Origin: Halobacillus yeomjeoni
GTDB taxonomy: Bacteria; Bacillota; Bacilli; Bacillales; Halobacillaceae
DNA: 64,000 nucleotides
Assembly (NCBI RefSeq): GCF_020171525.1
Contig: NZ_JAIVAI010000002.1
Location: 310,001-374,000 of the forward strand
Direction: 5' to 3'
Shown here one piece after another: positions 29,558 through 59,671 of the stretch (position 1 is the stretch's first letter; the number at the start of each line of letters is the position of its first letter). A program made the translations under genes and the position numbers. The notes under the pieces are model-generated. The model saw only the letters and a list, made by a program, of their open reading frames with translations. It was not told the origin of the DNA and searched no databases.

Positions 29558-29680
29558 GGCTCGCCTGGGCAGGGTTCGCTTTCCTGCGGGGGAACCGGCA
29601 AGCTTCCTCGGCTGCGCCTTCGGGATCTTACCTACTTCCTTCTCCCGCGGGAGTCTCACCCTTCCCCGTCGAACCTAGCC
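29558..29680 (-). repeat. Hairpin element copy A (reverse orientation)
   Basis: One of six copies of a GC-rich intergenic element. The outer arms GGCT and GGTTCG (29558-29561, 29573-29578) pair with CGAACC and AGCC (29670-29675, 29677-29680) with a bulge. Inside are the shared core motifs, here read on the minus strand: GAGACTCCCGCGGGA, GGAAGCTTG and CCCGCAGGAAAGCG. This is the most degenerate copy at its ends. Confidence 0.7.
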
Positions 29681-29721
29681 ATATCAGATTTTCGAAATTA
29701 CCTATTTCATCAAGTAAAGTA

Positions 29722-30132
29722 CTAATCAGATCGATTCAGCAGTTCTCTGATATATGGTTTTACATTGAACATTTTCACTGTGATTTGGACCATGAGTAAA
29801 AAGAAAATACTCTCAGGACCCTGCCCACGTACGGTGTCTGCGGACAGCCACTTTTCGTAAAACGTTTCAGGTACCCATTCTAATGCTTGTATGAAAACGT
29901 ACGTTAAAACTAAAGGAATGAACAGCAGCGCGATTCCCTTATAAACTGGATCGACTCCGAGGAAAATGAATAGATAGGTCAGGGCCATGATGGATACGAT
30001 GATGACTGATCTGCCTAATAACATGGAAGTTCCCGTGGATATGGCTCCTGCAATCATGAAAAGAACTACACTCCCAATCACAATCATCAGCAGTTTATCA
30101 CTTTCCCGAAGTTTATGTATGATATTTCCCAC
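29722..30132 (-). CDS. Four-helix membrane protein, unknown
   Basis: A 136-residue integral membrane protein with hydrophobic segments at about residues 14-35, 40-58, 65-85 and 104-118; the loop between the third and fourth contains EWVPETFYEKWLSAD. It starts at GTG, with AGGGGGAGG upstream. No family is recognised. It is the last gene of a minus-strand set (31.7-29.7 kb) of unknown membrane proteins, but a terminator at 30219-30253 separates it from the others. Confidence 0.6.
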   Translation of the reverse strand: MGNIIHKLRESDKLLMIVIGSVVLFMIAGAISTGTSMLLGRSVIIVSIMALTYLFIFLGVDPVYKGIALLFIPLVLTYVFIQALEWVPETFYEKWLSADTVRGQGPESIFFLLMVQITVKMFNVKPYIRELLNRSD

Positions 30133-30208
30133 TCTTCCTCCCCCTCACTTGGATCTCTTCTGTTATGGAGGAGTCTAACATTTATGAACGTAGATGACTT
30201 CAAGCAGA

Positions 30209-30436
30209 TTATCCCAATAATAAAGAGTCTTCATATAAATGAAGACTCTTTTTCCAGTTCAAATAGTTATGACTTTTGAAAAGAGATACCGACAAAATTA
30301 AAAAATCCACTCCAACACTTTCGCCAGCAAATACATCGGGAGTCAGCATGCCGGCAAGGAGATAACTGACTTTTTCCAGAAAGAATTTCACGATATCAAC
30401 TATAATTTCCGCTATATAATCGATCCATTTAAACAT
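30209..30436 (-). CDS. Small amphipathic/membrane protein, end doubtful
   Basis: A 75-residue open frame with AGGGTGATGGA before its ATG, 23 nt after the preceding gene. The first 50 residues look genuine (FKWIDYIAEIIVDIVKFFLEKVSYLLAGML, then DVFAGESVGVDF). The last 15-20 codons run through a strong terminator hairpin (30219-30253), which is unusual, so the original stop has probably been lost by a point mutation or frameshift. The family is unknown. Confidence 0.4.
   Translation of the reverse strand: MFKWIDYIAEIIVDIVKFFLEKVSYLLAGMLTPDVFAGESVGVDFLILSVSLFKSHNYLNWKKSLHLYEDSLLLG
30219..30254 (-). terminator. Terminator of the AUU/AUC gene cluster
   Basis: AAAGAGTCTTCAT (30222-30234) and ATGAAGACTCTTT (30239-30251) form a perfect 13-bp stem with a 4-nt loop. 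Confidence 0.85.
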
Positions 30437-30459
30437 TCCATCACCCTGGATCCGTATAT

Positions 30460-31047
30460 TTATTTTCCTTGATAAGCATCCTGATAGATCTCTTCTGGAA
30501 AACGGCTTAAATGATCTACTATGATTCCATTGAGTTCTTCTGGAGTTATCTCTGGGTCCTCTTGTCCTGTTTCCTTTGAAGACATATCATTTTTTGCTTT
30601 CGCTAAATACTCTTTTATCGTAACGAGCAATTTTACATCTTGTTCATCTAATTGGTCATCCTCAGCCAACGGGGGGACTTCCCCTTTAGTCTCCCCGGTT
30701 AGTTTGAGACCGTGCAAAAACATCGACGCATATTCAAAGAAATCGGTAGGTCCTAACGACCAACTCACATAATACCTTCCATTATCTATGATACCATCCG
30801 CTTTTAACAGTTCTTCGTTAAGTAAGCGGATATCCTGCTCCAACTCTGCGCCTTCTGGATTTTTTTCAATTAGATAATCTATTTTTCTGATTGATCTCTC
30901 AAGTGAAAAGTAAAAATGATTCACGAATGTTTTCCACTCATTTTCTTCTGCTTGAACATCTTGATAGAAATGGTATGTAAATATACTGAGCGTGATAATA
31001 ATAACCACCGAAACAAAAAAATAACCCTTGAATAACTTTTGTCGGAT
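30460..31047 (-). CDS. Membrane-anchored protein, apparent AUC start; paralogue 2
   Basis: A 195-residue protein of unknown function. An ideal GGAGG lies 8 nt before an ATC at 31047. An in-frame TAG lies at 31060-31062, so the frame cannot begin further upstream, and the first normal start codon is a GTG at 31008, inside the transmembrane helix. From the ATC the protein begins with a basic stretch (RQKLFKG) and a full membrane helix (YFFVSVVIIITLSIFTY), then an extracellular helical domain with VPPLAEDDQLDEQD and ETGQEDPEITPEEL. It is a close paralogue of the gene at 31100-31666, which has the same arrangement. Function unknown. Confidence 0.7.
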   Translation of the reverse strand: MRQKLFKGYFFVSVVIIITLSIFTYHFYQDVQAEENEWKTFVNHFYFSLERSIRKIDYLIEKNPEGAELEQDIRLLNEELLKADGIIDNGRYYVSWSLGPTDFFEYASMFLHGLKLTGETKGEVPPLAEDDQLDEQDVKLLVTIKEYLAKAKNDMSSKETGQEDPEITPEELNGIIVDHLSRFPEEIYQDAYQGK

Positions 31048-31099
31048 AAAAAACCCCTCCTACTTTGAACTATGAAACACTCCTTCATTTACGTAACAC

Positions 31100-31666
31100 C
31101 TATTGATAACCATCCAAGTAGATTTCATTCGGATACTGATCCAAGTGATCGTTTATCATTTTCTGGAACGCTTCTTTCGTCATTTCCGGATTTTCCTGAC
31201 CAGTCTCTTCCGAATACATGTCGCTTTTCGCTTCTGACAAATAACTTCTCAATGTTTTCAATCTGTTTATTTCTTGTTCGTCCAAGCGTTGATCTTCTGC
31301 TAATGGAGGCACGCCTCCACCTTCCGAACCACTTGAAATGCCATATAAATAACCTGGAGCTTTTCTAAAAAAACGAGTGTGTGGGATGCGATCACTTACA
31401 TAGTGGTTGCCGTTCTCAAGAGTGACATGAGCTGTTGTAAATTCTTCATTCAGTCTATGAATATGCTCCTTCAGCACTTCACCTTCCGGCTTATGATCAA
31501 TCAAGGAATCCAGTCTGATTATGGATTGATCCACTGAATAGTAAAAGCGATTGATAAATAACTTCCACTGACGTTCTTCTTCCCGGGCATCTTGAAAATA
31601 GAGATATGTAAAAATGCTGAGCACCATCATGACAGTGCCGATACCCCAATAGATGTTCCTTCGAAT
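31100..31666 (-). CDS. Membrane-anchored protein, apparent AUU start; paralogue 1
   Basis: A 188-residue paralogue of the next gene. AAGGAGG lies 7 nt before an ATT at 31666. An in-frame ATG at 31696 has only GGAAG 1 nt away, and using it would place the strong Shine-Dalgarno inside the coding region. The first internal ATG (in MMVLSIF) would remove half of the membrane helix. From the ATT the protein starts RRNIYWGIGTVMMVLSIFTY, aligning with paralogue 2, then shows the shared motifs VPPLAEDQRLDEQE, SYLSEAKSDM and ETGQENPEMT. One helix anchors an outside helical domain. Function unknown. Confidence 0.7.
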   Translation of the reverse strand: MRRNIYWGIGTVMMVLSIFTYLYFQDAREEERQWKLFINRFYYSVDQSIIRLDSLIDHKPEGEVLKEHIHRLNEEFTTAHVTLENGNHYVSDRIPHTRFFRKAPGYLYGISSGSEGGGVPPLAEDQRLDEQEINRLKTLRSYLSEAKSDMYSEETGQENPEMTKEAFQKMINDHLDQYPNEIYLDGYQ

Positions 31667-31792
31667 ATAAAATCCTCCTTTTGAAACTGGAAACATTCTT
31701 CCATCTTATCATAGTAAACAAAGTAGGTGAGGGAAAGATTGTAACCTTTAGAGTACATATTTAATAAGAGGGTTGCAGCCAGCTGACATTTT

Positions 31793-31917
31793 GAAGAGGA
31801 AACGGTGGAAATGGGGAGACTCCTGCGGGTACAGCGGTAAGGGTGAGACCCCGCAGTGAAACGAGGAGGCTCAGCGCCGCCCGCGGAAAGCGGACCATTT
31901 CCACCGTCTTCACCTTC
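31793..31917 (+). repeat. Hairpin element copy B
   Basis: The arms ACGGTGGAAATGG (31802-31814) and its exact complement (31895-31907) form 13 bp, extended outwards imperfectly by TGAAG/CTTCA. The core has GAGACTCCTGCGGG, GGTGAGACCCCGC, GGAGGCTCA and CCCGCGGAAAGCGGA. It sits between camS and the AUU/AUC gene cluster. Confidence 0.85.
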
Positions 31918-31928
31918 ACATAAAAGCA

Positions 31929-31965
31929 TAAAAAAGCCATGCGGGAATTTCCCACATGGCCTTCT
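31929..31965 (-). terminator. Terminator of the ligA-camS operon
   Basis: On the minus strand AAGGCCATGTGGG pairs with CCCGCATGGCTTT (one mismatch, 5-nt loop) and is followed by Ts, directly after the camS stop. Confidence 0.85.
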
Positions 31966-31968
31966 ATC

Positions 31969-33117
31969 TTATTCATAAATATGAACGAACGGTTCTTTCT
32001 TGCCCGCTTTCTTGACGATCAGACTCTCCTGTCTGTCCATACTGTTGATTTTCACTTCGACGGTGTAGTGTTCAGGGAACATTTCCACCACCAGGCTGTA
32101 AACGTACTGCGTGAATCCAATCACTTCCGACTGCGACCGGAATTCGATCGGAATGTCGATCGAAACTTTCTGCAGGTCGTCATTGATATAGAATCCATTC
32201 GCAATCATGCCTACGAAGTTCGGGAAATATTCCGTTACTTCTTTCCGGAAATCGGAGAAGATTTGGTAGTCATCGAAATAATTTTCTTTCCCTTCCTTCG
32301 ATGGGAACAAGACGTACTTTTCATCGATCTTCTTCCAATCTTTGATTTTCAGATCCGAGCCTTTGACGTAAGCCTTGGCGAGGAAGTTCCCCGGCACTTT
32401 GGAGCTTGCCTCTTCCTCTTCGAAAATCGCAAAGACGATCGGTACGTCATTCAGTTCCTTCCGTTCACGAAGGCGTTTGAGAATCTCCCCTGCGTACTGC
32501 TGCCCTTTTTTCATAAGCTCTGCAGTGGAATGGTTCTCTTCATAGTCACGGCCTTCTGCACGGAAGTTATAGACCGTACGAAGCGAGATTCCGATTGTAA
32601 CCCCTTCGACTTCGACGACGTTTTCATCTTTTTTCACAAGATAGTTCTGTTCGATGATGTTGGAGATGTACTTCGGATGCTTCCGGAAGTCCTCTTCTTT
32701 CGCTTCATCTTCATTCAATTCTGGGTTCAACCCTTCTTCGTTGCGGTCTTCATCATAACGGGACAACCAGCTCAACAGCGTGTCGTCCGTTAAAAATTGT
32801 CCCGGCTGGAAGAAGTATTTTTCCGGATCGAAGTATTCTTTCGAATGCCTGCGCAGGCCGCTCTCAAATTCAGCGATATCCATCCGGTTGCCCATCTGGT
32901 TCGTCGTGACGGACCGGGCTTTGGAGACTTTCGGGCTGTCCTCGGTGAGGATCATCCGGTAGTTTTCCTCAGACATGCTGTAGTTCGGGACGATGGCGGT
33001 CTGGTTGCTGTTCTTGTCTTTCGTTTCCTGGATGACTTCTTCTCTGTTGTCAAAAACCGGCGTACACGCTCCTAATATGAGTAAAGAGCTTAGCAACAGT
33101 GCGTGCAGCTTCCTCAT
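31969..33117 (-). CDS. camS: CamS family lipoprotein (YerH)
   Basis: A 382-residue lipoprotein of the CamS family; in enterococci and staphylococci the signal peptide of CamS is processed into a sex pheromone, while the mature protein has no known role. The lipobox is LILGAC with Cys near residue 17. The mature part is typical: YSMSEENYRMIL, DSPKVSKARSVTTNQ, EFESGLRRHSKEYFDPEKYFFQPGQ, and the end GKKEPFVHIYE. I placed the start at the ATG at 33117, after GGAAGGA. It follows ligA by 15 nt, as in Bacillus. Confidence 0.92.
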   Translation of the reverse strand: MRKLHALLLSSLLILGACTPVFDNREEVIQETKDKNSNQTAIVPNYSMSEENYRMILTEDSPKVSKARSVTTNQMGNRMDIAEFESGLRRHSKEYFDPEKYFFQPGQFLTDDTLLSWLSRYDEDRNEEGLNPELNEDEAKEEDFRKHPKYISNIIEQNYLVKKDENVVEVEGVTIGISLRTVYNFRAEGRDYEENHSTAELMKKGQQYAGEILKRLRERKELNDVPIVFAIFEEEEASSKVPGNFLAKAYVKGSDLKIKDWKKIDEKYVLFPSKEGKENYFDDYQIFSDFRKEVTEYFPNFVGMIANGFYINDDLQKVSIDIPIEFRSQSEVIGFTQYVYSLVVEMFPEHYTVEVKINSMDRQESLIVKKAGKKEPFVHIYE

Positions 33118-33132
33118 GGTTCCTTCCACTCC

Positions 33133-35151
<2,019 letters not shown>

Positions 35152-37386
35152 TTACGCTTTCGTAATCGGAGCAAAACGGGCGAGCAGACGCTTGATGCCC
35201 ATGGATGGGAAGGCGATGTCGAGTTCCATCGCATCACCCTCACCCTGCACCTTGACGACTGTCCCTTCGCCCCACTTCTTGTGGACCGCTTTGTCCCCGG
35301 GCTGCCAGCCGATTTTCTCGCCGCCGGTCGATGGTTTCGGCTCCATCTTCTTCGCGGCGCGTTTCTTCGGCTGCTGCTTCTGGTTCGGGAACGCGGTGTT
35401 CTGCGGCTTCTTCTTATTGAAGAAAGGCAGTTCCTCTTTTTCCTCTTTCCCTTCGACCAGGTCATCCGGGATTTCGTTGATGAAGCGGCTTTCCGGGTTC
35501 ATGTTCGTGCGTCCGTACAGCGTACGCATTTTCGCGTTGGTCAAAAACAGCTGCTTTTCGGCACGGGTGATGCCGACATACGCAAGACGGCGCTCTTCTT
35601 CCATCTCTTCCTCATCCTGCAGCGCACGGCTGTGCGGGAAGACGCTCTCCTCCATACCGATCAGGAAGACGACCGGGAACTCAAGACCTTTGGCGGAGTG
35701 CAGCGTCATCAACGTCACTGTATCGTCATTACTAGGGTCTTCATTCATCGAATCGATATCCGCAATCAGGGCAAGATCGGTCAAAAAGGCGATCAATGTT
35801 TTATCTTCGCTGTTCTCTTCGAAGTTTTTCGTTACGGATTTGAATTCTTCGATGTTCTCGAGACGGCTCTGTGCTTCGATGCTTTTCTCGTTCATAAGCA
35901 TCTCTTCGTAGCCGGTTTTATCGATGACTTCCTGGACCATGTCGGTCGCAGATAAGAACTCCTGCTGCTCGGTCCAGTTCTGGATCATTTTACGGAACGA
36001 CATGATCGATTTTGACGCTTTCGCACTGACACCCACAAAATCGACTTCCGCTGCCGCTTCATATAAGGAAATGTCATGATCGGCTGCATAAGCCATCATC
36101 TTATCCATGCTCGTCTTACCGACGCCACGCTTCGGTTCGTTGACGACACGCTGGAAGCTGAGATCGTCGTTCGGGTTGGCGATCAGACGCAGGTACGCAA
36201 GCATATCTTTTATTTCTTTACGGTCGTAGAACTTCGTGCCACCGATCATCTGATAAGGGACGCCCGCTTTGACGAACGTTTCCTCGATCGTACGGGACTG
36301 GGCGTTCGTACGGTAAAGAATCGCAATATCTTCATATTTGAAGCGCCCCTGACGGACAAGCTCTTCAATTTTTTCCGTTACAAAAAGACCTTCTTCGCGT
36401 TCCGTGCCCGCCTTGTGGTAGTGGATCTTCTCTCCACCGGCATTATCGGTCCACAGGCGCTTCGGCTTACGGCCGCTGTTGTTGTCGATGACGTTGTTGG
36501 CGGCATTCAAAATCAGTTCTGTAGAACGATAGTTTTGTTCAAGCAGAATCGTGCGTGCTTTCGGGTAGTCACTTTCGAAGTTCAGGATGTTCTGGATGTC
36601 CGCTCCGCGCCATGCGTAGATGGACTGGTCCGAGTCACCGACGACACACAGGTTCTGATAACGGCTCGCCAGGTGTTTGACGAGCTGGTACTGTGCGTGG
36701 TTCGTATCCTGATACTCATCGACGTGAATGTATTGGAAACGGCGCTGATAGTACTCGAGCACTTCCGGCACCTGATCGAACAGAGATAACGTCTGCATGA
36801 TCAAGTCATCGAAGTCGAGTGACTGGTTTTTGCGCAGTTTCTTCTGGTAGCCTTTATAAATTTTCGCGATTTGCTCTTCGTGCATGTTGCCCGCCTGCTT
36901 CTCGTAATCTTCAGCGGTCATCAGTTCGTTCTTCGAATTACTGATCGCACCGAGCATCGCCCGCGGATCCCACTTTTTCGGATCGAGGTTGAATTCTTTC
37001 AGTACCTGCTTGATGACTGAAAGCTGGTCACTGGAATCCAGTATCGAGAAGTTGCGGTCGTAGCCGATCCGGTCGATGTCGCGTCGCAAAATACGCACAC
37101 ACATCGAGTGGAACGTCGACATCCAGATTTTTTCCCCGTCTTTGCCGACGAGTGATTCGACACGATCTTTCATTTCGCGTGCCGCTTTATTGGTAAACGT
37201 AATCGCCAGGATGTTTCTCGGGGATACGTCTTTTTCGCTCAGTAAATAAGCAATGCGGTGGGTCAAGACACGCGTCTTCCCACTTCCTGCACCGGCCATG
37301 ATCAATAGCGGTCCTTCGGTATGGGTCACTGCATTTCGTTGTTGTTCATTCAAGCCTTTGATCAAAGCATTCATCGCTTGTGTCAT
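35152..37386 (-). CDS. pcrA: ATP-dependent DNA helicase PcrA
   Basis: Superfamily 1A 3'-5' helicase that clears RecA and transcription complexes, acts in excision repair and supports rolling-circle replication. 744 residues. The motifs are visible: [14 protein letters not shown] (Walker A), [26 protein letters not shown] (motif II), [14 protein letters not shown] (motif III), [26 protein letters not shown] (motif V) and [13 protein letters not shown] (motif VI). The C-terminal tail binds RNA polymerase in B. subtilis and is present ([13 protein letters not shown]). It lies between pcrB and ligA. Confidence 0.97.
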
Positions 37387-37398
37387 GGTACACCATCC

Positions 37399-38094
37399 TT
37401 AGTCCATTTTTGATTCTTTCGCTGCCCGGACCGTTTCCAGGGCAGCGTCGATTCTTTCATAAATGATATTTCCAACGACGATGACATCCGCAAAGCGGCT
37501 CATCTCTTCGGCTTCAGCCGCAGAACGGATGCCACCTCCGTAAACGAGTGTCGTCTGTTGAAGTTCTTCGGAGATCCGTTCAACGAGCTCCGGGCTCCCG
37601 TACGTCCCACTATATTCTAAGTAAAAAACGGGCAGTTGAAACATATGCTCCGCCATCCGGGCATACGCAAGTACGTCCTCTTCATCCGGAAGGGCACAGT
37701 TCGTATGTTGAAAAACTTTCGCTTCAGGATTCAACACACAGTAGCCTTCGGTGAGCACCGTATCCCAGTCCATCACATCGCCATACTCTCTCACGGCATG
37801 ATGCTGGGCATCGAGCATCCACTTTTTCTCACGGCTGTTCAACACGAGCGGTATCAAATAGCCGTCAAAACCTGGCGCGATCGCTTCGATGTCCGAAATC
37901 TCCAGCAGGACAGGAACGTCATATTCCTGGATGCGTTCCAGCAGATCGAGGACATTTTCAAATGTGATGCCGTCAGTCCCGCCGACGATGATGGCATCCG
38001 TCCCTGAGGTGCAGATTAGTCTTAAGTTGTCGTCTGACAGATGCTTATTGGGATCGACCTTGAAGATGTGATCCCACTCGTTGAACTTTTCCAT
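37399..38094 (-). CDS. pcrB: Heptaprenylglyceryl phosphate synthase PcrB
   Basis: A TIM-barrel prenyltransferase that joins heptaprenyl diphosphate to glycerol-1-phosphate, making an archaeal-type ether lipid precursor found in Bacillales. 231 residues from the ATG at 38094, which GGAGG precedes; an upstream in-frame ATG has no such site. Seen: HIFKVDPNKHLSDDNL (glycerol-1-phosphate region), GTDAIIVGGTDGITFENV, FYLEYSGTYG and the phosphate loop VYGGGIRSAAEAEEM with VVGNIIYE. First gene of the pcrB-pcrA-ligA-camS operon. Confidence 0.95.
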   Translation of the reverse strand: MEKFNEWDHIFKVDPNKHLSDDNLRLICTSGTDAIIVGGTDGITFENVLDLLERIQEYDVPVLLEISDIEAIAPGFDGYLIPLVLNSREKKWMLDAQHHAVREYGDVMDWDTVLTEGYCVLNPEAKVFQHTNCALPDEEDVLAYARMAEHMFQLPVFYLEYSGTYGSPELVERISEELQQTTLVYGGGIRSAAEAEEMSRFADVIVVGNIIYERIDAALETVRAAKESKMD

Positions 38095-38280
38095 GTCCGT
38101 CCTCCAAAAAAAACAGATATCCATTCACTCATTATAGCAAACTTTGCTGTGTGGATTGAATGGATAAGGGGGAGAAAAAGTGAGGATTGTATGAATGGGC
38201 GATGGCGGAAGAAATTAATTGATTCGTAATGAAATCGGGTGGGGATCAATTCGCTTGCAGGCTTCAAGGAGTACAAATAA

Positions 38281-38333
38281 AGAAAGAGCAGCACTCTCAT
38301 TTGTGATTTCACACAATACAAGAGCGCCGCCCA
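38281..38333 (-). terminator. Terminator of the GNAT gene
   Basis: On the minus strand GCGGCGCTCT pairs with AGAGTGCTGC (wobble pairs allowed), with an inner GTGTG/CACA pairing, followed by CTTTCTTT. Confidence 0.7.
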
Positions 38334-38345
38334 TCTGTCTATGTA

Positions 38346-46593: not shown

Positions 46594-46720
46594 AAAAAAA
46601 TGGGAGACCACTGTTAAAACAGGATCTCCCAGGCTTTTGTCCTTCCGTGTCACAGTATGAAACTGTGTGTTTTCTCTCGGACCAGACCAACTCCACACAA
46701 AGTTGCGGAACCCTAGAAAA
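46594..46720 (-). ncRNA. Guanidine-I (ykkC) riboswitch with terminator
   Basis: On the minus strand the leader carries the ykkC consensus in order: CTAGGGTTCCG, GGTCTGGTCCGAGAG, AAACACA, ACACGGAAGGACAAAAGCC and GGGAGA. The final GGGAGA can pair with TCTCCC just before a run of eight Ts (46594-46606), so ligand binding would compete with termination. This class senses free guanidine, and the downstream SMR exporter pair is its classic target. Confidence 0.95.
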
Positions 46721-46817
46721 CATTCGCTTTCATTCAATTGCGTCTAACTTAACATTATCACAAACGGAGAAACAAGGGGTCTCACTTTACATGGGATATC
46801 ATGCTTTTTGTTGTCGC

Positions 46818-50578: not shown

Positions 50579-50597
50579 TTAAGTTACAAAACGTCCC

Positions 50598-50643: not shown

Positions 50644-50656
50644 GCTTCAATAGAAA

Positions 50657-51448: not shown

Positions 51449-51466
51449 CGTTTTCACCTTCTCATT

Positions 51467-51495
51467 TAAATAAGGACCCCGGGGGCCCTTATTTA
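51467..51495. repeat. 29-bp GC-centred palindrome before the TauE gene
   Basis: TAAATAAGG (51467-51475) and CCTTATTTA (51487-51495) frame a CCCC/GGGG centre with one mismatch. It lies 19 nt upstream of the TauE ATG and 125 nt downstream of the rhodanese stop. It could be an operator of a CsoR/CstR-type regulator or a terminator between the two genes. Confidence 0.5.
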
Positions 51496-51619
51496 GACTT
51501 ATCCTTTTTTCCAGAATCTCCTTCGTGAATTTAAAGAAGTTCATACCATCCGATTTCACCCAGTATGCGAGGCTCCTCCGGTGTCCGTGCACTTCAAGGT
51601 CCTCACCTCAATTCGTCCT

Positions 51620-51919
51620 TTACTTTTCTACATCATCTTTCCATTCAAGCATGCCGCCACTCATATTCCGTACCTTATAGCCTTTTTCATCCAACAATTG
51701 ATAAGCTTTTCCGCTTCTGCCTCCAGAGCGGCAAACCATGATATGTTCTTTGGATTGATCGATTTCATCTAATCGGTCCGGCAGTTCTCCTAAAGGAATG
51801 TGAGTGGCACCTGGTATCTTCCCTTCTGCGACTTCTTCATCCTCACGCACGTCAATCACACTTACATCTTCATCACTTTTTACTTTCTTTGCTACTTCTT
51901 CCGGTTTGATTTCCTTCAT
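51620..51919 (-). CDS. Rhodanese-domain sulfurtransferase
   Basis: A 99-residue single-domain rhodanese. The active Cys is in MVCRSGGRSGKAY (about residue 68), and the fold is complete from SVIDVREDEEV through IPGATHIPLGELPDRL. It passes sulfane sulfur to cyanide or protein acceptors; as a neighbour of a TauE exporter it probably takes part in persulfide or thiosulfate handling. The ATG at 51919 is 8 nt after AAGGAGG. Confidence 0.88.
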   Translation of the reverse strand: MKEIKPEEVAKKVKSDEDVSVIDVREDEEVAEGKIPGATHIPLGELPDRLDEIDQSKEHIMVCRSGGRSGKAYQLLDEKGYKVRNMSGGMLEWKDDVEK

Positions 51920-52201
51920 GTTCATGACCTCCTTAAGTAATGTTATCCTCCTGTATACTCACCCCTACCAATACATAACGGGGTATATAGGCGGATAAAA
52001 ATTTTAGGATCAATTTGTCATCCACCCTTACTCAACATACCCTGGGTTACAGTGAGTAAGGGATGAAGAAACTGAACCTTTTCAAATCATTTTCATGAAT
52101 ACTATTACCAGTTAACGTAAAAAGTTAAACATTCATTTTCAGCCTTCCTATTTAATTGCTTGATCAAGGATTCTGATAGTCAGCTCTCAGTGGTCTACGT
52201 G
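51920..52201. other. Intergenic region between rhodanese and mer operon
   Basis: No gene. TATACCCC and GGGGT-GAGTATA-like half-sites (about 51954-51993) stand in front of the rhodanese gene. A 10-bp perfect stem CCCTTACTCA (52027-52036) / TGAGTAAGGG (52055-52064), with ACCC/GGGT inside, lies beyond the merA end; it has no clear T-run. Confidence 0.4.
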
Positions 52202-53789
52202 CTAACCTGCACAGCAGGACAATTTGGAAACATCTTTATCAAACGTCAAACTCGCTAACTTCAACCCTTCCGCCATCGTTAGATAGGGAGCCATAGTCTC
52301 TTGAAGATCTTCGGCGGTCAATTTAAATTTCACAGCAAGGGTAGCTGCATAAATGACATCCCCGGCGTTTTCACCCACCACGTGAGCACCAATAATCTGA
52401 TTCGTTTCGGCGTCCATGATCAATTTGAACACACCTTGAGTTTGATGATTCACTAATGCTCTTGGAACCGAGTCTAATGGAAGGACGGACGTCTTCACAT
52501 CATATCCAGCTTGATGGGCCTGGCTTTCTATCCATCCAACAGACGCGATAGAAGGGGTTGTAAACGTCACTGCGGGTATATGTTCCAAGTTTTGTGTTTT
52601 GTTCGTTTGATGAGATACGTTGTGCCCAACGATGCCTCCTTGATGTGCTGCCACATATACAAATTGAGGGCTCAGGGTTACATCACCAGCTGCATAGATA
52701 TGGGGATGATTGGTTTGCAGATAGTCATTGATAAGGACCTCTCCATAATCCCCTAATTTTATACCGATGTTACGTGCTTGGAGTTTATCAGTATTGGGCT
52801 TCCTTCCTGCTGCAACGAGCAGCTGATCACCTTCAATAATCTTTTCGTTCCCTTCCACTTTCACATGTACGAATGTTTGACCGTTTTTCTCCTCGACTTT
52901 TTGATAATGGACATCTTTCATCAAGGTAATCCCTTCTTCTTTCAACAACTCTTCAACGGTTTCGGAGATCTCAGGTTCATATTGTTTCAAAAGCCTTGAA
53001 CTCCGTTGCATAAGCGTTACCTCCGCTCCTAGGTGCCGATACATTTGTCCTAATTCCAAAGCGATGTATCCCGATCCTATGACAACAAGATGCTTTGGAA
53101 CTTCCTTCAACTCTAAAGCGGACGTGCTTGTCAAATAAGATACATCTTTCAACCCAGGGATATCCGGGACGTAAGGGGAGGCCCCTGTGGCAATTAGAAA
53201 GGATGAGGCACTCAGATTCTTTCCCTCGACGGATACAGTGTTGGAATCAACGAAGTGAGCTTCTCCTTTAATAAAATCGAATCCGTATTCATTGATCAGA
53301 TCTTCATATTTCTCTTTTCGCAAGTGTTGGACCAACTTCTCTTTTTGTTTTTGCAGATTCTCCATATTTGGCTTCTTAACTGAAGTCGATAAACCTTCGA
53401 ATGGTTGATGCTCGGATTGAAATTGAATGTGCCCTGCTCGGAGGAGAGTTTTAGAAGGTACGCAGTCCATTATCAGATGCCTGTATAGCTGCAGAAAAAG
53501 CAGCTCCCCCTGAGCCTATAATTAAGAAATCATAATCGTAGGCCGTTGCCGATAATTCATTATTATCAGCTGTGGTTATATGAATCATTTCCCCTGGTTG
53601 ATATGGGGTCTGCTGAAGTGATTCCCGTATGGTACCTTCCTTAAGACCTTCAGGAAATTGAAATTCCGCTTTTCCTTTTTGATAATCCACTTGAATGTTT
53701 TCAGCACCACTTTTTTGAAGAGTATGTCGAACATGTTCTTCACAATTTGTACATGTCATTCCTTTGATACTCAACTGAATTGTTCGCAT
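52202..53789 (-). pseudogene. merA: Mercuric reductase, disrupted by a small deletion
   Basis: Two fragments in different frames. Fragment 1 (from the ATG at 53789) has a heavy-metal-associated domain with GMTCTNCEEH and the start of the FAD domain ([16 protein letters not shown]), then stops at NGLRTF. Fragment 2 picks up in the next frame at [11 protein letters not shown] and is intact to the C-terminal vicinal Cys pair SCCAG. Comparison with normal MerA, where NG is followed by about 19 residues including GGTCVNVG before CVPSK, shows a deletion of about 56 nt that also shifts the frame. The first redox Cys is lost, so Hg(II) cannot be reduced even if the frames were joined. Confidence 0.88.
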
Positions 53790-53806
53790 GTAGTTCTCCT
53801 CCTTTA

Positions 53807-54034
53807 CTAAGAACAACAGCCCCTATTGGCTGATGATGGTTTGCTTTTTTTATAAGTACTTACTGCAAGGATGAAAAATACAGCCAGCAACGGAAGTAAA
53901 ATATAATCCAAGTACCCTCCCCAGGCTCCTAGCCCGAGCAAACCTAAAAAGATTACTAATAATGGAGTCGCACAGCAAAGGAGAGTGATGAAAAATCCAA
54001 CCACACTTCCAATAAACCACTTATTTCTTCTCAT
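53807..54034 (-). CDS. merF: Mercuric transport protein MerF-like
   Basis: A 75-residue membrane protein with two helices. The first contains the vicinal Cys pair that receives Hg(II), FFITLLCCATPLLVIF (residues about 14-29). The second is YILLPLLAVFFILAVS, followed by a tail with the second Cys pair, ANRGCCS. It resembles MerF/MerT carriers that bring mercuric ion into the cell. It lies 15 nt after merR and 17 nt before merA. Confidence 0.82.
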   Translation of the reverse strand: MRRNKWFIGSVVGFFITLLCCATPLLVIFLGLLGLGAWGGYLDYILLPLLAVFFILAVSTYKKSKPSSANRGCCS

Positions 54035-54049
54035 CTTACTACCCTCCTT

Positions 54050-54454
54050 CTAACTATCATCTCCAAGAACATTCTCGATAATTGGACAAGCATATAAGTC
54101 TCTTTCATTCGGGCAACAATTCTTCAAATCATCCAATACTTTTTGTATGTGTTGTAAATCTTTAATTTTCTTTTCGACATCCTGCTGTTTTTCTGAAATG
54201 AATTGATACATATCCTCACAACGACCTGAATCTTTATCGACTATCCCTAACAGTTTGTGTATTTCACTTAGTGAAAAGCCCAGATCTTGCATTTTTTTAA
54301 TGAAATGAACGCGTTTTACTGTTTGCGCTCCATATATACGGTACCCTGAGCTGTTACGGTATGGTTCTGGTATTAATGATTTCCGTTCATAGTAACGGAT
54401 GGTTTCTTTGTTCACGTTACACCTCTCAGCTAATTCGCTAATTCTAATCTCCAA
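54050..54454 (-). CDS. merR: Mercury-responsive regulator MerR
   Basis: A 134-residue MerR-family activator/repressor. The winged helix (RISELAERCNVNKETIRYYERKSLIPEPYRNSSGYRIY) leads to a coiled-coil and the Hg(II)-binding Cys set: one in GRCEDMY, then NCCPNER and ACPIIE. It starts at TTG (54454), with AGAGGTG upstream. First gene of the operon merR-merF-merA, directly behind a typical MerR-type promoter with a 19-bp spacer. Confidence 0.92.
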   Translation of the reverse strand: MEIRISELAERCNVNKETIRYYERKSLIPEPYRNSSGYRIYGAQTVKRVHFIKKMQDLGFSLSEIHKLLGIVDKDSGRCEDMYQFISEKQQDVEKKIKDLQHIQKVLDDLKNCCPNERDLYACPIIENVLGDDS

Positions 54455-54474
54455 ATGAATCACCTCTATACATA

Positions 54475-54505
54475 ATATAAACCCTGTACCATGGTACAGG
54501 GTCAA
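54475..54505 (-). promoter_or_regulatory. mer promoter/operator
   Basis: On the minus strand TTGACC (54500-54505) and TTATAT (54475-54480) are separated by 19 bp, the distorted spacing used by MerR. The spacer overlaps a perfect 22-bp palindrome made of ACCCTGTACCA and its complement (54481-54502). Confidence 0.9.
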
Positions 54506-54573
54506 GTAATGATTGGTTTATTATTCTTTTTTAGGGGCAAAAGATGGAGTGTTTCAAGGAAAAATGTAACTTA

Positions 54574-54604
54574 CAAAAAATATCCAGACCTATTGATCTG
54601 GACA
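54574..54604 (-). terminator. Terminator of the YitT-like gene
   Basis: TCCAGA and TCTGGA pair around an 8-nt loop, followed on the minus strand by TATTTTTT. Confidence 0.7.
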
Positions 54605-54605
54605 T

Positions 54606-55211
54606 TCATTTTTCAATGATTGATATATGCCCGCCACCTCTTGAAGAAGTGAGCAGCATAGTTACAAGTCCTACGCTTAAGATGGTGATCGTGGACAAAA
54701 GAAGAGTTTGCGTTGAGAAAAGGTACCCGCTCGCAGCGATGATGAGGAGGTCGAAGGCGAAAATCACAAACCCGACATTCAGTTTAACCCAATCAGCGAT
54801 CATCTGCGCAAGAAGGTCCGTCCCCCCAGTGCTCGTCTGATTGCGGAGCATGAGACCGATACCTCCTCCAACGAGCGCACCGCCGAAAATGGAGCTGATC
54901 GCAGGATCGAGCGCTAAATGGTAGTCGCGCAGTCCGTGGAAAATATCAATAGAAAAGGAGGAAACAAGCAGCCCATGGAGGCTGTTGTAAAAGTAGGCGC
55001 GGTAATGAAACCAGGCGAGGGTGAAAATCGGGATACTGAAGCAGATGATCGTGAAACCGACTTTCAATCCCCAAATATAATTCATTATCATTCCAAGACC
55101 GATCATGCCGCCATCAAGAACATGGTCCGGGATGAGGAAAAAGTTGATGCCGAGCGATAAAAGAATGCTTCCGAACAAGATCGAGACGCCTTTTTTCACA
55201 AACGATTTCAT
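54606..55211 (-). CDS. YitT/DUF161 family membrane protein, short form
   Basis: A 201-residue membrane protein with about five to six helices. The family motifs are GINFFLIPDHVLDGGMIGLGMIMNY near the N-terminus and GGALVGGGIGLMLRNQTSTGGTDLLAQMI (about residues 110-138), then a final helix pair. The usual C-terminal DUF2179 domain is absent, so this is the short form. AAAGGGATG precedes the ATG. The function of the family is not known. Confidence 0.8.
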   Translation of the reverse strand: MKSFVKKGVSILFGSILLSLGINFFLIPDHVLDGGMIGLGMIMNYIWGLKVGFTIICFSIPIFTLAWFHYRAYFYNSLHGLLVSSFSIDIFHGLRDYHLALDPAISSIFGGALVGGGIGLMLRNQTSTGGTDLLAQMIADWVKLNVGFVIFAFDLLIIAASGYLFSTQTLLLSTITILSVGLVTMLLTSSRGGGHISIIEK

Positions 55212-55385
55212 CAGGTCATCCCTTTCTGTCAGGACAAGTTTTACTTCATCCTATGCTCGTCTGAGGGGGAATAGAATCAGAGGTTGATGAGTTGCTTGGC
55301 TACCAACTATATCCTTTCTATTTTAATAAATGTGTTTAGGTGTGGGTAAAGACACAATGAAGTGACCTTTAGCACACTCATTGAT

Positions 55386-55503
55386 GAGGTGGCGGTGGAA
55401 ATGGGGAGACTCCTGCGGGAAAAGCGGTCCAGGTGAGACCCCGCAGTGAAACGAGGAGGCTCAGCACCGCCCGCGGAAAGCGGACCATTTCCACCGCCAC
55501 CTC
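55386..55503 (+). repeat. Hairpin element copy C
   Basis: The outer arms 55386-55404 and 55485-55503 are exact complements over 19 bp (GAGGTGGCGGTGGAAATGG and its complement). The core matches copy B closely: GAGACTCCTGCGGGA, GGTGAGACCCCGC, GGAGGCTCA, CCCGCGGAAAGCGGA. It lies between the YitT-like gene and yerC. Confidence 0.9.
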
Positions 55504-55526
55504 GACCTTCTGCCTGATAATTTCCA

Positions 55527-55560
55527 CAAAAAAAAGACCGACTCCCAATGAGTCAGCCTT
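55527..55560 (-). terminator. Terminator of the yerB-yerC unit
   Basis: On the minus strand GGCTGACTC pairs with GAGTCGGTC (wobble pairs) and is followed by eight Ts; it overlaps the last codons of yerC. Confidence 0.8.
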
Positions 55561-55855
55561 CCTTCTTTTCCTGCACACGATCAAGCGCCAGCGTATACGC
55601 GTCATTCCCGTAGTTCAAGCAGCGCTTAACGCGGGAAATCGTCGCCGTGGATGCGCCCGTTTCCGTTTCTATTTTATGATAGGTGAAGCCTTCACGCAGC
55701 ATGCGCGCCACTTCAAGGCGCTGAGCCAGCGACTGGACTTCGTTCATCGTCGCTAAGTCATCAAAGAACTCGTAACACTCTTCGACGCTTTGCAGTGACA
55801 GGATCGCTTCGAACAATTGATCGAGGGTCTTGCCCCGAAGTTTATCGATTTGCAT
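55553..55855 (-). CDS. yerC: YerC/YecD family TrpR-like protein
   Basis: A 100-residue helical DNA-binding protein of the TrpR-related YerC group. The helix-turn-helix is in REGFTYHKIETETGASTATISRVKRCLNYG (about residues 55-84), and the N-terminal part IDKLRGKTLDQLFEAILSLQSVEECYEFFDDL is typical. The ATG at 55855 is used because GGAGGG lies upstream; a nearer in-frame ATG overlaps it. Its place between yerB and pcrB is conserved in B. subtilis. Confidence 0.9.
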   Translation of the reverse strand: MQIDKLRGKTLDQLFEAILSLQSVEECYEFFDDLATMNEVQSLAQRLEVARMLREGFTYHKIETETGASTATISRVKRCLNYGNDAYTLALDRVQEKKEG

Positions 55856-55874
55856 ACTCTCCATCCCTCCTGAC

Positions 55875-56924
55875 TTAATTGGCTTCGACGGTTGCATTCG
55901 CCGGTATGACGTTCACCCAAGTCTGACCTGGTGTGAATGCGAGCGGTTCGCCGTCTTTATAGGGCAGGATACGGCCGTTTTCACTTTGCCATTCGACCTC
56001 CTGCATCTTTCCATTTTGTAAAAGATACCCGGTTCCGCCGGCTGTTAAATTTACGTCACGGCGGCCGACGTTATCGATGATTTTGTGATTCGTTTCTACG
56101 ATGAAGACGTTCTCGAGTTCCAGTCGCTCACCGTTGTTGCTATCATTGGATGGTTGTCCGTCGCTAGAGCGAAGGAACGTACCATTCTCCTGATCGACCG
56201 TATACGTAACGGTTTCCTGTGGTCTTTCGGAATACGTGATTTTCACGTCATTCACCGCCTGTCCTTCACCAGAACTTTCTTCAGCAAAAGGCAGTGCTTC
56301 AATCGTCATATCGGTGTCATAGCCCTTTTGTTCAAGGACACGATCCAATCCGTCCGAAAGTAAATACGAATTGTGCGGCGCCTTCCGTTCATTGGAACGC
56401 ATGAACAGCCAGCCATTGTTGTCATACTTGGCTCCGTTCACGAAATCGATGCCGCTCGATTGTACTTTATTATTGATTGCGGCAGAAGCACCGTGATAAA
56501 CATAAACGGCATCATACCCTGCAGCCAATTCGAAGTAATAAGGTCGTGCACTTCTTACCGGTCCTATTGTATCAGGAATTTGACTATGAAATAAAGCTAA
56601 AAAGCGGGTGATCTGCCCTTCTGCCAATACTTCATAGACGACATCCGCCTCACTCAGCCCCGATTGCGGCCGGGCTCTTGTATGGTTGTTGACCATCACG
56701 GAAATCGCGCGGTGATCGACCTCTTCATCGGTCGGTTCTCCGGTCAAAGGATAGACATTCTCAAACTCGGGCTCCTCTTCTTCCTGTTCCACGGCTTCTT
56801 TCTCTTCTACAGTCGTCTCTTTTTCAGAGGCTTCTTTCGATTTTTTCTCTGTACCTGCATCACTGGAGCAGGCGGCCATCAGGATGAGAAAAGGGACAAT
56901 TAAAAATAAAGCCAGCTTTCTCAT
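55875..56924 (-). CDS. yerB: YerB lipoprotein (DUF3048)
   Basis: A 349-residue lipoprotein. The lipobox is LMAAC (Cys about residue 19), followed by a Glu-rich linker and the DUF3048 domain: PLTGEPTDEEVDHRAISVMVNNHTRARPQSGLSEADVVYEVLAEGQITRFLALFHS, then GPVRSARPYYFELAAGYDA. The C-terminal half forms the second domain, ending FTPGQTWVNVIPANATV. Function unknown. Conserved position after yerA. Confidence 0.93.
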   Translation of the reverse strand: MRKLALFLIVPFLILMAACSSDAGTEKKSKEASEKETTVEEKEAVEQEEEEPEFENVYPLTGEPTDEEVDHRAISVMVNNHTRARPQSGLSEADVVYEVLAEGQITRFLALFHSQIPDTIGPVRSARPYYFELAAGYDAVYVYHGASAAINNKVQSSGIDFVNGAKYDNNGWLFMRSNERKAPHNSYLLSDGLDRVLEQKGYDTDMTIEALPFAEESSGEGQAVNDVKITYSERPQETVTYTVDQENGTFLRSSDGQPSNDSNNGERLELENVFIVETNHKIIDNVGRRDVNLTAGGTGYLLQNGKMQEVEWQSENGRILPYKDGEPLAFTPGQTWVNVIPANATVEAN

Positions 56925-56963
56925 TCAAGCATTTCCCCATTCTATATTGTTCTCTCTTTTATA

Positions 56964-58709
56964 TTAACGCATGATCGAAGGATAGAGTACCTCTTTCTTT
57001 TTCACATCCATGATCCCCATCGGTGTGATGCGGATGTAAGGCAGATGTACGGAAGAAAGGAAAAGCAGCGTATAAACGGGATCACCGAACGGGAATCCGT
57101 ACCCTTTCAACAGCTTCTTCAGTTCCTCTTCCTCTTTGATCAATTTCTCGAGAGGCAGATCGGACATCACACCACCGAGCGGAAGAGGCAGCTCAAAGAT
57201 GATTTCCCCGTCATCGACGAGTACGATACCTCCTCCTATTTCCTTCATCCGCTTGAACGCTGTTTTCATATCCTCACGGGATTTTCCGACTAAAATCAAA
57301 TCACCCGTGTTGGAATAGGAGCTGACAAGCGCGCCGAGGGAATGGGTGAACCCTTTCAAGAACGTATTCACCGTCCATTCTCCTTCGCGGTCCATCAGCA
57401 TGAGAAACGCTTCATCACTGTCTTCCGGCAGCTGATAAACGGAAGGATCGATATCGATCGCGTACGGCTTCATGATGACATCGTTGACCATCTCCATTCC
57501 GATCGGCATCGAGAACTGCAGATCGCGATCACTCATCTCCCAATCGATGGAAAGCGGCTTGATGCCGTTTTTCTCCCATTCGATCGTCGTGGAAGGTGGG
57601 ATTTCCTCACCATCACGCTTCACCCATTCACCCTTGGCGATGACCGAATGCGGCGTCGGATCTTTCGGGTCGGTCAAAAAGTTCAAGTGGGCGACACGGC
57701 CGACGTTGATGCTTCCAACCCGGTTTTCCACTCCGAAATGACGCGCCGGCTGATACGTCGCCATCATATACGCATCAATTTCCGGGACACCTGCTTCCAT
57801 CGCGATTTTGATGCATGGATTGATCAGTCCTTCACGATAAAAGCCAGGCGTAGACCCGTCGGTCGTGAACATCAGGTGATCAAAGTGTGTGTGCCCTTTT
57901 TCCTGCAGGCCTTTTAAAATCTCAGGCAGGTCCGGTCTGATCGATGAGTAACGAAGTCCGGTATTGTAGCCGATCTCCAGCCGGTTCAACACATCGTCTG
58001 CCGTCATCGCTTCATGATCGGAATCCATACCGAGCAGGCGCATTTTCGCAAGCGTTTTTTCAGAAGCTCCAGGCAGATGGGCTTCAAGCGGCTTGCGCGC
58101 ACGCTTCGTTTCCTGCATGCGGTGAAGCATCTGCTCATCACCGCCATAAAGGACATCCGTCCAGGCGGTCAGTTCGCCGCCCTGGATTACAGCATCATGC
58201 TCGATCCAATCCGGCACCTGGTCCTCGAACTTCCTCCGGTCTTCCTCACGAAGCACAGACTGTGAATCGAAACGTGCCCACCAGTACATTGTCGCAGGCA
58301 GTTTCATCGATTCTTCCAGTAAAGAAAACGCTTTCTCTTTGTCGGTTAAAAAAAGCCACATCAAGTTGTCATTCACCAACGTTGTGGTTCCTGTCCGAGC
58401 TGCATATTCCGCTAAGCTTCGGGGATTATATAACTGAAACGGATGGGCATGAGGTTCAACGTAGCCGGGTACGATATAGCTCTCTGAGCCGTCGATGATC
58501 TCCGTTCCTTCTGTATTCGGTGGTAGGTTCGGACCTGTATAAACAATCCGGTCTTCGTAAATCCATATATGTCCTGACATCCATTTTTTCAAATAGACGT
58601 TCAAGTAAGTTGTATTTTGAATTAATTTGGTCGGCGCATGCGTTCCGTCCAGCACGGATGCATGGACACGCAGCTGACGGTTACGCCAACGGAATCGTGT
58701 TTCATTCAT
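56964..58709 (-). CDS. yerA: YerA, adenine-deaminase-family amidohydrolase
   Basis: A 581-residue metal-dependent amidohydrolase related to adenine deaminase. Visible: IVPGYVEPHAHPFQLYNP with the HxH metal pair in EPHAHP (about residues 86-88), LEAHLPGAS, GLRYSSIRPDL, HLMFTTDGSTPG (Asp ligand) and the C-terminal GALVSSYSNTGDLILVGKS with a LPLGGVMSD segment. In B. subtilis YerA is an orphan of this family; the substrate has not been settled, so adenine deamination is only a possibility. AAGGGAGG precedes the ATG. Confidence 0.88.
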   Translation of the reverse strand: MNETRFRWRNRQLRVHASVLDGTHAPTKLIQNTTYLNVYLKKWMSGHIWIYEDRIVYTGPNLPPNTEGTEIIDGSESYIVPGYVEPHAHPFQLYNPRSLAEYAARTGTTTLVNDNLMWLFLTDKEKAFSLLEESMKLPATMYWWARFDSQSVLREEDRRKFEDQVPDWIEHDAVIQGGELTAWTDVLYGGDEQMLHRMQETKRARKPLEAHLPGASEKTLAKMRLLGMDSDHEAMTADDVLNRLEIGYNTGLRYSSIRPDLPEILKGLQEKGHTHFDHLMFTTDGSTPGFYREGLINPCIKIAMEAGVPEIDAYMMATYQPARHFGVENRVGSINVGRVAHLNFLTDPKDPTPHSVIAKGEWVKRDGEEIPPSTTIEWEKNGIKPLSIDWEMSDRDLQFSMPIGMEMVNDVIMKPYAIDIDPSVYQLPEDSDEAFLMLMDREGEWTVNTFLKGFTHSLGALVSSYSNTGDLILVGKSREDMKTAFKRMKEIGGGIVLVDDGEIIFELPLPLGGVMSDLPLEKLIKEEEELKKLLKGYGFPFGDPVYTLLFLSSVHLPYIRITPMGIMDVKKKEVLYPSIMR

Positions 58710-58781
58710 GGGGAGTCCTCCCTTAATTCAATATCTACTATCGTAACACATGACGATCACGTTTACGAAGGAGGAAATGCT

Positions 58782-59042
58782 TTGAAATCAAATATTGGAA
58801 CAATCAATGCGATGCTTCGGATTACAGCCGGACTCAGCATGCTTACATTTGCGACGATCCGTGCCGCCAAGCGAGGCGAAGATTCGTCGATGCACCCAAT
58901 TATGGTGGTAATCGGGGCTTTGAAAGTCGCGGAAGGCATCACCCGCTACTGTCCACTGACCGCCGTTTGTGAAGAGTTGATGTATGAGTCGGATGGAAAA
59001 GAAGAAGATTGGGAACAGGATTTCACCGAGTTTGAGATATAG
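58782..59042 (+). CDS. DUF2892 family small membrane protein
   Basis: An 86-residue protein started at TTG (58782), after AAGGAGG. It shows the DUF2892/YgaP transmembrane pattern: KSNIGTINAMLRITAGLSMLTFATI (first helix) and HPIMVVIGALKVAEGITRYCPLTAVCEEL, where the Cys-Pro is the usual family feature. A C-terminal acidic tail (DGKEEDWEQDFTEFEI) follows. It diverges from yerA. Function unknown. Confidence 0.75.
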   Translation: MKSNIGTINAMLRITAGLSMLTFATIRAAKRGEDSSMHPIMVVIGALKVAEGITRYCPLTAVCEELMYESDGKEEDWEQDFTEFEI

Positions 59043-59116
59043 ACTGGTGCTTCCTTTTCTTATAGGCTCTGTTAAAGTTGATTGTTGATATTTAGTCTCA
59101 AACTAAGGACATAGCG

Positions 59117-59240
59117 GAGGCGGCCTTTTAGAATGACTCCCTTTCCGTGGGGTACCGTGAGCCTCCTCAGGCTGCGCCTTCCGGGGTCTCACGATGTACC
59201 TTTATCCCACAGGAGTGTCGCCATTCTAAAAGGCCGCCTC
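59117..59240 (-). repeat. Hairpin element copy D (reverse orientation)
   Basis: The outer arms 59117-59135 and 59222-59240 are exact complements over 19 bp (GAGGCGGCCTTTTAGAATG and its complement), a sequence unlike the arms of copies B, C, E and F. The core, read on the minus strand, has GACACTCCTGTGGGA, GTGAGACCCCGGAAGG, GAGGAGGCTCACGG and CCCACGGAAAGGGAG. Confidence 0.88.
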
Positions 59241-59295
59241 TTCAAAGTAGGAGGGTAAGAATGGCCGTTACCGAAGTCCGTTACACCAATTACGA

Positions 59296-59423
59296 ACGGG
59301 ATGGCAGGGGAAAACAGGTAGACTCCTGCGGGAAAAAGGAACAAGGTGAGACCCCGGAGAACGAAGTTCGATGAGGCTCAAGCGTTCCCCGCGGAAAGCG
59401 GACTGTTTTCCCTGCCATCCCGT
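59296..59423 (+). repeat. Hairpin element copy E
   Basis: The outer arms 59296-59317 and 59403-59423 pair over 21 bp with a single bulged G; the sequence (GGGATGGCAGGGGAAAACAG) is again different from the other copies. The core has TAGACTCCTGCGGGA, GGTGAGACCCCGGAG, GATGAGGCTCA and CCCGCGGAAAGCGGA. Confidence 0.88.
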
Positions 59424-59512
59424 GCTCTTAGTAAATAACGGATCGAATTTAACAGATCCTAAATAATAGTTGGAGGTCTGGGAAATCACTCGCTTTACGC
59501 GGCACGATTCAG

Positions 59513-59637
59513 CGGATGGGGTGGGAAACGGCGACACTCCCGCGGGAGAAAGAGCTGGGCGAGATCCCACAGGGCGCAGCCCGAGGAAGCTTGCCAGGTC
59601 GCCCGCAGGAAAGGGAGTCGTTTCCCACCCTCACTCA
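59513..59637 (+). repeat. Hairpin element copy F
   Basis: The arms GGGTGGGAAACG (59519-59530) and its complement (59619-59630) pair over 12 bp, with a less regular extension outside. The core has GACACTCCCGCGGGAG, GGGCGAGATCCCAC, CGAGGAAGCTTG and CCCGCAGGAAAGGGAG, most like copy A. Confidence 0.82.
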
Positions 59638-59671
59638 CAACTATGAACGACCCGGTCTCCTTAAAAATAAG

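Follow-up and report, generated by a model that had tools for sequence, protein, structure and literature searches.

The stretch of DNA analysed here, the window, covers 64,000 nucleotides of the Halobacillus yeomjeoni genome (contig NZ_JAIVAI010000002.1, positions 310,001 to 374,000) and carries six copies, A to F, of a hairpin element. They belong to a large and apparently undescribed family of folded repeats in the class Bacilli, which share one architecture, have covarying stems and a strand-specific fold, are widely spread and are in part carried in head-to-head pairs inside miniature transposons. Copy A (29555–29680, minus strand, type IV) has an imperfect basal stem and an outer inverted repeat, P0, of 7 bp (ATTTCGA/TCGAAAT). 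Copy B (31793–31917, plus strand, type I) has an inner basal stem of 13 bp, copies C (55386–55504, plus strand, type I) and D (59117–59240, minus strand, type II) have perfect basal stems of 19 bp, copy E (59296–59423, plus strand, type III) has one of 21 bp with a single bulged base, and copy F (59513–59637, plus strand, type IV) one of 12 bp. The P0 of copy E, read on the sequence, has its 5' arm (TCCGTTA) at 59277–59283 and its 3' arm (TAACGGA) at 59436–59442, both on the plus strand. By core type, B groups with C and A with F. An earlier note on this DNA had located the six copies and given arm lengths for B to F, all of which we recovered; it had missed the second outer repeat P0.

All six copies were identified by their fold and by a covariance model, R2, built from 114 matches in named genomes. 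R2 matches the window at 29555-29677(-), 31796-31914(+), 55386-55504(+), 59117-59239(-), 59298-59422(+) and 59513-59637(+), with E-values of 5e-19 to 8e-29, and nowhere else at E<=1. This test is not fully independent, because the matches behind R2 were found and aligned with R1, a model built from the six window copies, and because the named set may hold congeners. Folded as RNA, each copy forms a single long hairpin; C, D and E folded as DNA give similar results on both strands. The fold energies of B to F lie far below those of shuffled sequences (z from -4.4 to -9.3, equalled by 0 of 200 shuffles). The fold of copy A, with its imperfect stem, is weaker (z -2.84, 1 of 200 shuffles as good).

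On its plus strand the element reads GACTCC...GGTGAGACCCC...GAGGCTCA...GGAAAGCG and folds into one long hairpin that consists, from the outside inward, of P0, the basal stem P1, an internal loop, and the stems P2, P3, P4 and P5. P0 is an inverted repeat of 8–12 bp that is present only in some lineages, at a near-fixed spacing (mostly 35–38 nt before ACTCC and 37–40 nt after GGAAA). With own-genome types II and III excluded, a P0 of at least 8 bases near the fixed distance occurs in 40 of the 102 own-genome and family copies and in 12 of the 92 named copies, compared with 2.9% of cross-copy pairs. P1 measures about 12–21 bp. The conserved internal loop is GAGACTC/AAAGCGA, P2 is CTGCGG/CCGCGG (its T.G wobble is kept in 117 of 138 distinct rows), and P4 is GTGAG/CTCAC, followed by CC/GG steps and a bulged A; P5 ends in a small apical loop. 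The loops, P2 and P4 are nearly invariant, while P0, P1, P3 and P5 may have any sequence as long as they pair. Apical loops have the form C(GNA)G in 98 of the 249 parsed copies (35 of 284 anchored copies were unparsed for P3/P5), a count whose members are not independent, since copies share ancestry. Many named copies carry nearly the same word on both sides of P1 (GGAGCGGAA), and such arms would pair through G.A and G.G contacts. A diverged copy (L407 501-658, genome G689) has a long replaced apex within a similar basal stem.

Pairing of the arms can be measured without a structure model, by comparing the two arms of one copy with arms taken from different copies. Our input consisted of 67 of 102 and 110 of 114 listed matches, with antisense shadows and partial matches left out, and of 148 of the 149 own-genome copies; 3 were lost at locus ends, so that 322 copies were extracted, of which 38 were unanchored. 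Among the 284 anchored copies the mean pairing is 13.8 within copies and 5.6 between copies, and 223 of them reach an arm score of at least 10, as against 7.5% of cross pairs. The named set scores lower (mean 9.9; 47 of 93 reach 10), which is expected where the score counts the arms with the same word on both sides as mismatched. P3, again without a structure model, pairs at 3.6 within and 2.5 between copies. In an alignment of 139 copies (138 distinct), 94.0% of cells are paired, compared with 71.2% in shuffles and 37–47% in slid controls. Two-sided change is seen in 28 of 35 pairs, with 1062 two-sided cells among the distinct copies compared with 290 after shuffling, and the covariation score of 0.579 (0.159 shuffled) is reached by 0 of 500 shuffles. 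This alignment was fitted to the model and leans that way; the arm and P3 tests are therefore cleaner. The copies thus have what is expected of a structured RNA family, covarying helices round conserved loops, and the pairing is selected.

The selected stem proposed in the earlier note is borne out by the large covariation excess and by the strand-specific wobble described below, which recurs at a fixed locus where the formal test is weak. Two of its statements need qualification. Arms were said to be unrelated between copies: pairing within copies far exceeds that between them, but subfamilies share arms (one 14-mer each in 28 and 22 copies). Complementarity of the two ends was claimed for each copy, and this holds for most, but 11 of 127 anchored own-genome copies score below 10 and mixed arms occur (by eye, in 4 of 45 anchored type II copies). 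Type II copies have exchanged a whole block in both arms together (CCTTTTAGAATG to CCTTGGGAATG). Such a swap, with the mixed copies, lends some support to ends being rebuilt by copying, also suggested in the note, as an extra process; arm correction fails to explain the strand bias.

Among P1 appositions G.T occurs 70 times and A.C 22 times (p 5e-7), GA/AG 154 times and CT/TC 13 times; P3 has 11 G.T and 1 A.C. Mutation in a duplex should give G.T and A.C equally, and a folded plus strand tolerates G.T, which argues that one strand folds. Correction of one arm from the other is insufficient as an explanation, because G.T far exceeds A.C and GA/AG far exceeds CT/TC.

Copies D and E, which the earlier note had treated as separate, are both hairpins of the family, but together they are the two halves of one miniature transposon of 395 bp (59065–59459), in which they stand head to head between the ends GGCTCTGTTAAAGT...AATTTAACAGATCC. 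This window transposon has no target duplication, as 5 of its 8 flanking bases differ. The intact II/III element is about 469 bp long and has GGCTCTGTTA... at its ends. Both ends are found at <=2 mismatches in 49 clusters, and the end motif occurs 145 times at <=3 mismatches, compared with once for the reversed control, so that terminal inverted repeats are present. Target-site duplications are present too: identical 8-bp flanks surround 23 of 47 clusters, compared with 4 of 2162 cross pairs, and with <=1 mismatch allowed the figures are 30 of 47 and 30 of 2162. Other hairpin types lie near the same transposon ends elsewhere. Among the end-motif matches listed no autonomous element sharing these ends is seen; the portions fetched of the small contigs C11-C15 consist of N.

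The head-to-head arrangement extends beyond this element. Of the own-genome neighbours no more than 400 bp apart, 44 are head to head (-/+), though these pairs are not independent, because many are copies of one element, and the sole other adjacencies are two ++ within triplets. The other two hit lists, with antisense shadows removed, hold 38 -/+, 6 -- and 1 ++ among close neighbours, and the +/- arrangement is absent from all three sets. Two related ideas were rejected. Ends of the GGCTCTGTTAAAG type are not part of every copy: with <=1 mismatch allowed in their inner 9 bases, and in the 75 nt upstream of each copy, they turn up in 9 of the 92 named copies, in 2 of the 63 from the family and in none of the 127 from the own genome. 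Nor do wider -/+ pairs seem to enclose the genes of an autonomous element, as own-genome gaps show no -/+ excess; one such pair (L207) encloses genes for chorismate and dehydroquinate synthase, and another (L183) a single 362-aa protein without a Pfam family. Short versions of the II/III element, 263–291 bp long, contain one chimeric hairpin with arms from different types (own genome, at C1:1246845, C8:54604, C2:100440, C1:1334143, C1:23152, C8:22880 and C7:114961); in two of these, inspected by eye, the junctions are not the same and the interior seems to have been flipped. Peribacillus frigoritolerans FJAT-2396 has tandem copies (L192 4648-5139 and L228 786-1332), with start-to-start distances of 185 and 209–214 bp.

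At least 149 copies are present in the 3.27-Mb H. yeomjeoni genome (R1, E<=0.01), a number obtained from the best 150 of 375 candidates; a copy found by pattern at C1:42859 is missing from the R1 list. R1 matches occur in 43 of 44 genomes of a family-level sample, in 307 of 397 genomes and 110 of 135 genera of an order-level sample, and in 104 of 398 genomes and 33 of 146 genera of a class-level sample, 81 of those 104 genomes lying outside the order. A draw from the whole phylum gave R2 matches in 4 of 398 genomes, all four within the class. Copy counts per genome in these samples are lower bounds, with 79 or 8 candidates scored per genome. A pattern scan of named genomes found at least 118 stretches, and the 80 loci listed are labelled as Peribacillus, Priestia, Gottfriedia, Metabacillus, Oceanobacillus, Halobacillus, Cytobacillus, Scopulibacillus and other Bacillaceae-type genera. 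One contig among them is labelled Pseudomonas sp. ISL-84 (L205); it bears a typical copy and probably belongs to a Bacillus-type genome. In genome G252 (L327-L332) the hairpin lies inside a longer repeat, which at 5 of 6 places is the same for at least 110 bp to either side. By eye, most of the six copies in genome G127 (L333-L338) are surrounded by arms like GAGGCTGGGACAA/TTGTCCCAGCCTC and followed on the plus strand by a terminator-like stem and a T-run. Given its presence in 307 of 397 genomes of one order, the family may rank with the most frequent structured elements of Bacilli. It fills intergenic space and generates false proteins, as the earlier note had suspected: open reading frames of about 100 codons cross hairpins at 31627–31929, 55433–55756 and 59268–59570 of the window. 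Similar reading frames cross copies in L161 and L171.

A genus from a different order keeps a copy at a fixed place. Each of its 19 species has 1–4 copies per genome, and 18 of them keep an orthologous copy after nrdF, the gene for the ribonucleotide reductase small chain (Pfam PF00268), and before a gene for an S1-domain protein (gene neighbours read in L386, L397 and L384). Fifteen orthologs were aligned, eight clustered by neighbourhood and seven fetched, each after the same gene end; three further species have the nrdF region by DNA search. In the 19th species (G721) the unit is absent, and a terminator-like stem lies between nrdF and the S1 gene. The wobble bias recurs in the aligned orthologs, with G.T in 48 cells of 17 columns and A.C in 4 cells of 4 columns. 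A block of twelve bases before the stem, TTTCCTTTACGC, is invariant in 15 of 15 orthologs and present in the three further species, and the spacer on the nrdF side is variable. By eye, the stem is followed by a T-run in 17 of 18 species, the exception being G657. About 540 bp separate nrdF from an intact unit in G593, and the unit is therefore independent of nrdF. Upstream of the unit we read a promoter-like block (TTGMTT, 17 nt, TACGCT). The nrdF-linked copy looks like a small RNA gene with a putative promoter of its own.

The copies are members of one family of structured nucleic acids within the class Bacilli. We think it probable, though only just, that this family is a structured RNA turned mobile repeat. 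The folding form would be an RNA of about 125 nt, and its core would bind a cellular factor. In one genus it would still be a small-RNA gene at a fixed place, equipped with a promoter-like block of its own and a T-run. In Bacillaceae genomes the element would have multiplied in the manner of short interspersed elements (SINEs), partly by riding on miniature transposons, and the majority of its dispersed copies may now be drifting. We favour RNA because the nrdF-linked unit exists. A bolder proposal, which we make tentatively, is that bacteria have in this family their own equivalent of SINEs. A small-RNA gene of ancient origin in Bacilli, still fixed between nrdF and the S1-domain gene in one genus, may be the source of mobile copies that number tens to hundreds in each genome throughout an order, with the spreading machinery or a host protein reading the folded strand and not the arm sequence.

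Several results weigh against an RNA turned mobile repeat. Formal covariation at the nrdF locus is weak: 95.2% of cells are paired compared with 94.9% in shuffles (13 of 500 shuffles reach the observed value), the covariation score is reached by 11 of 500 shuffles, and the 2 two-sided pairs are reached by 18 of 500, with slid controls giving up to 4. Further pair types do not exceed shuffles there (434 of 500 reach the observed number), and the changes are mostly one-sided wobbles. A scan with a consensus promoter did not list the promoter-like block. The frequent C(GNA)G apical loops, and GNNA tetraloops closed by C-G that are GNYA in 19 cases and GNRA in 11, resemble stable DNA mini-hairpins more than they follow the GNRA rule of RNA. 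The own-genome types II and III, which look young, have 20 G.T and 12 A.C in all (13:9 and 7:3, neither significant; counted in 28 of 45 and 15 of 43 copies of the same length with few changes). Dispersed copies have no general T-run excess, on which ground a general role as terminators was rejected, and in co-directional gaps their orientation to genes is not significantly biased (34 same, 22 opposite). The majority of inserted copies seem to be drifting; selection apparently operates on those lineages that spread.

The main rival is a hairpin of single-stranded DNA: the plus strand would fold during replication or transposition and serve as substrate for a recombinase or a HUH nuclease, like integron attC sites or the hairpins of repetitive extragenic palindromic (REP) sequences. 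Strand specificity would be just as expected if the folded strand were DNA. DNA hairpins favour GNA and GNNA loops, and the C(GNA)G and GNNA apical loops, the G.A-rich internal loops and the low share of G.T among P1 pairs (70 compared with 3334 Watson-Crick pairs) all agree with such a strand; the chimeric copies with their apparently flipped interior suggest hairpin processing. We still consider it rather unlikely. The two Y1_Tnp genes found in the H. yeomjeoni genome are at least 10 kb from any listed copy, and a link to Y1 transposases was rejected on this ground. Types II and III transpose like any normal element with terminal repeats and leave duplications of 8 bp, a fixed form is present in one genus, and the loop rule is weak in the named set, where only 10 of 82 parsed copies have C(GNA)G and another class is commoner (18).

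A plain miniature transposon or fold-back family, with one arm recopied from the other by quasi-palindrome correction and a functionless fold, would explain the block-wise change of type II arms with its few mixed copies, the transposon ends and duplications, and the weak constraint in young copies. Recopying is strand-blind, however, and should not leave G.T and A.C at 70:22 in P1 and 48:4 at the fixed locus, nor should loops and core be kept when stem sequence is not. The asymmetry contradicts recopying as the sole cause, and we regard this explanation as improbable, although recopying may act as a helper process. Slightly less probable again is a cis-acting element of host mRNAs (a terminator, 3'-end stabiliser or RNase III site) seeded beside many genes. 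Copies occur between convergent genes more often than the background would suggest (25 of 92 compared with 37 of 278) and lie nearer to the upstream stop (median 150 compared with 263 bp), and the T-run at the nrdF locus would suit such a role; the orientation and missing T-runs of the dispersed copies, and the drift of young copies as if neutral, do not. A chromosome-organising or recombination site read as double-stranded DNA, raised in the earlier note, could account for high copy number and dispersal, but arm sequence is free, strand bias is unexpected of a duplex site, and close copies obey the head-to-head rule inside mobile units; we consider it very improbable. The structured RNA that became mobile thus remains our preferred explanation, and the many compensated stem variants round one fixed core are a natural experiment in which RNA or DNA folding and the partner of the core can be tested directly.

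Two further observations concern the window itself. At the locus of copy C, 12 of 18 relatives with both flanks on one contig have 109–209 bp between the flanking matches, compared with 353 bp here; these are distances from which exact ends are not deducible, since the flanking genes of congeners are only about 69–84% identical in DNA, which makes an empty-site comparison at base resolution impossible. A guanidine-I riboswitch (46624–46727, minus strand, 89 bits) lies upstream of two short open reading frames of about 104 and 113 codons, which by size and arrangement may encode small exporters.

How does the family compare with known systems? It lies outside any Rfam family: at none of the hairpins did a match exceed the gathering cut-off, and those found were at chance level (e.g., SNORD125, 19.4 bits compared with 56). 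It is in no paper of the literature searched, which covered dispersed repeats, bcr elements, non-coding repeats of Bacilli and spurious proteins, with subscription journals mostly outside the search; the four core words returned only papers titled on other subjects. The parts consulted of four relevant papers (PMC2267715, PMC6542083, PMC5678879, PMC8632094) do not describe it. The repeats bcr1-bcr18 of the Bacillus cereus group are likewise dispersed elements with mobile-element features, 100–400 bp long, bcr1 averaging 39 copies per strain; as far as the consulted part of that account goes, they occur only in that group and are associated with TTTAT motifs (PMC6542083). Compared by description and not by sequence, the present family differs in being class-wide, in its compensated arms and in a pair element with 8-bp duplications and GGCTCTGTTAAAG ends. 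A 2008 survey of stem-loop families, again known to us in part and compared by description only, lists Bhal-1 and Bhal-2 from Bacillus halodurans, Efa-1 from Enterococcus faecalis and Sta from Staphylococcus aureus; these are structured too and some may be relatives, but their sizes differ (Bhal-1 74 bp, Efa-1 163 bp; PMC2267715). The stem-loop-replacing transposition of IS1272, in the portion of its description consulted, indicates that hairpins of any sequence can be targets of transposition; it proceeds without target duplication, whereas the pair element here has one (PMC5678879).

REP sequences and REPINs, with their RAYT (Y1) transposases, are also structured extragenic repeats that often form inverted pairs, but they measure 20–40 nt, compared with about 125 nt here, where no Y1 gene is near any listed copy. 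Eukaryotic SINEs derive from small RNA genes, and they resemble the present family in that a fixed small RNA exists alongside a multi-copy mobile relative. They differ in that the carrier here is a DNA element with terminal repeats.

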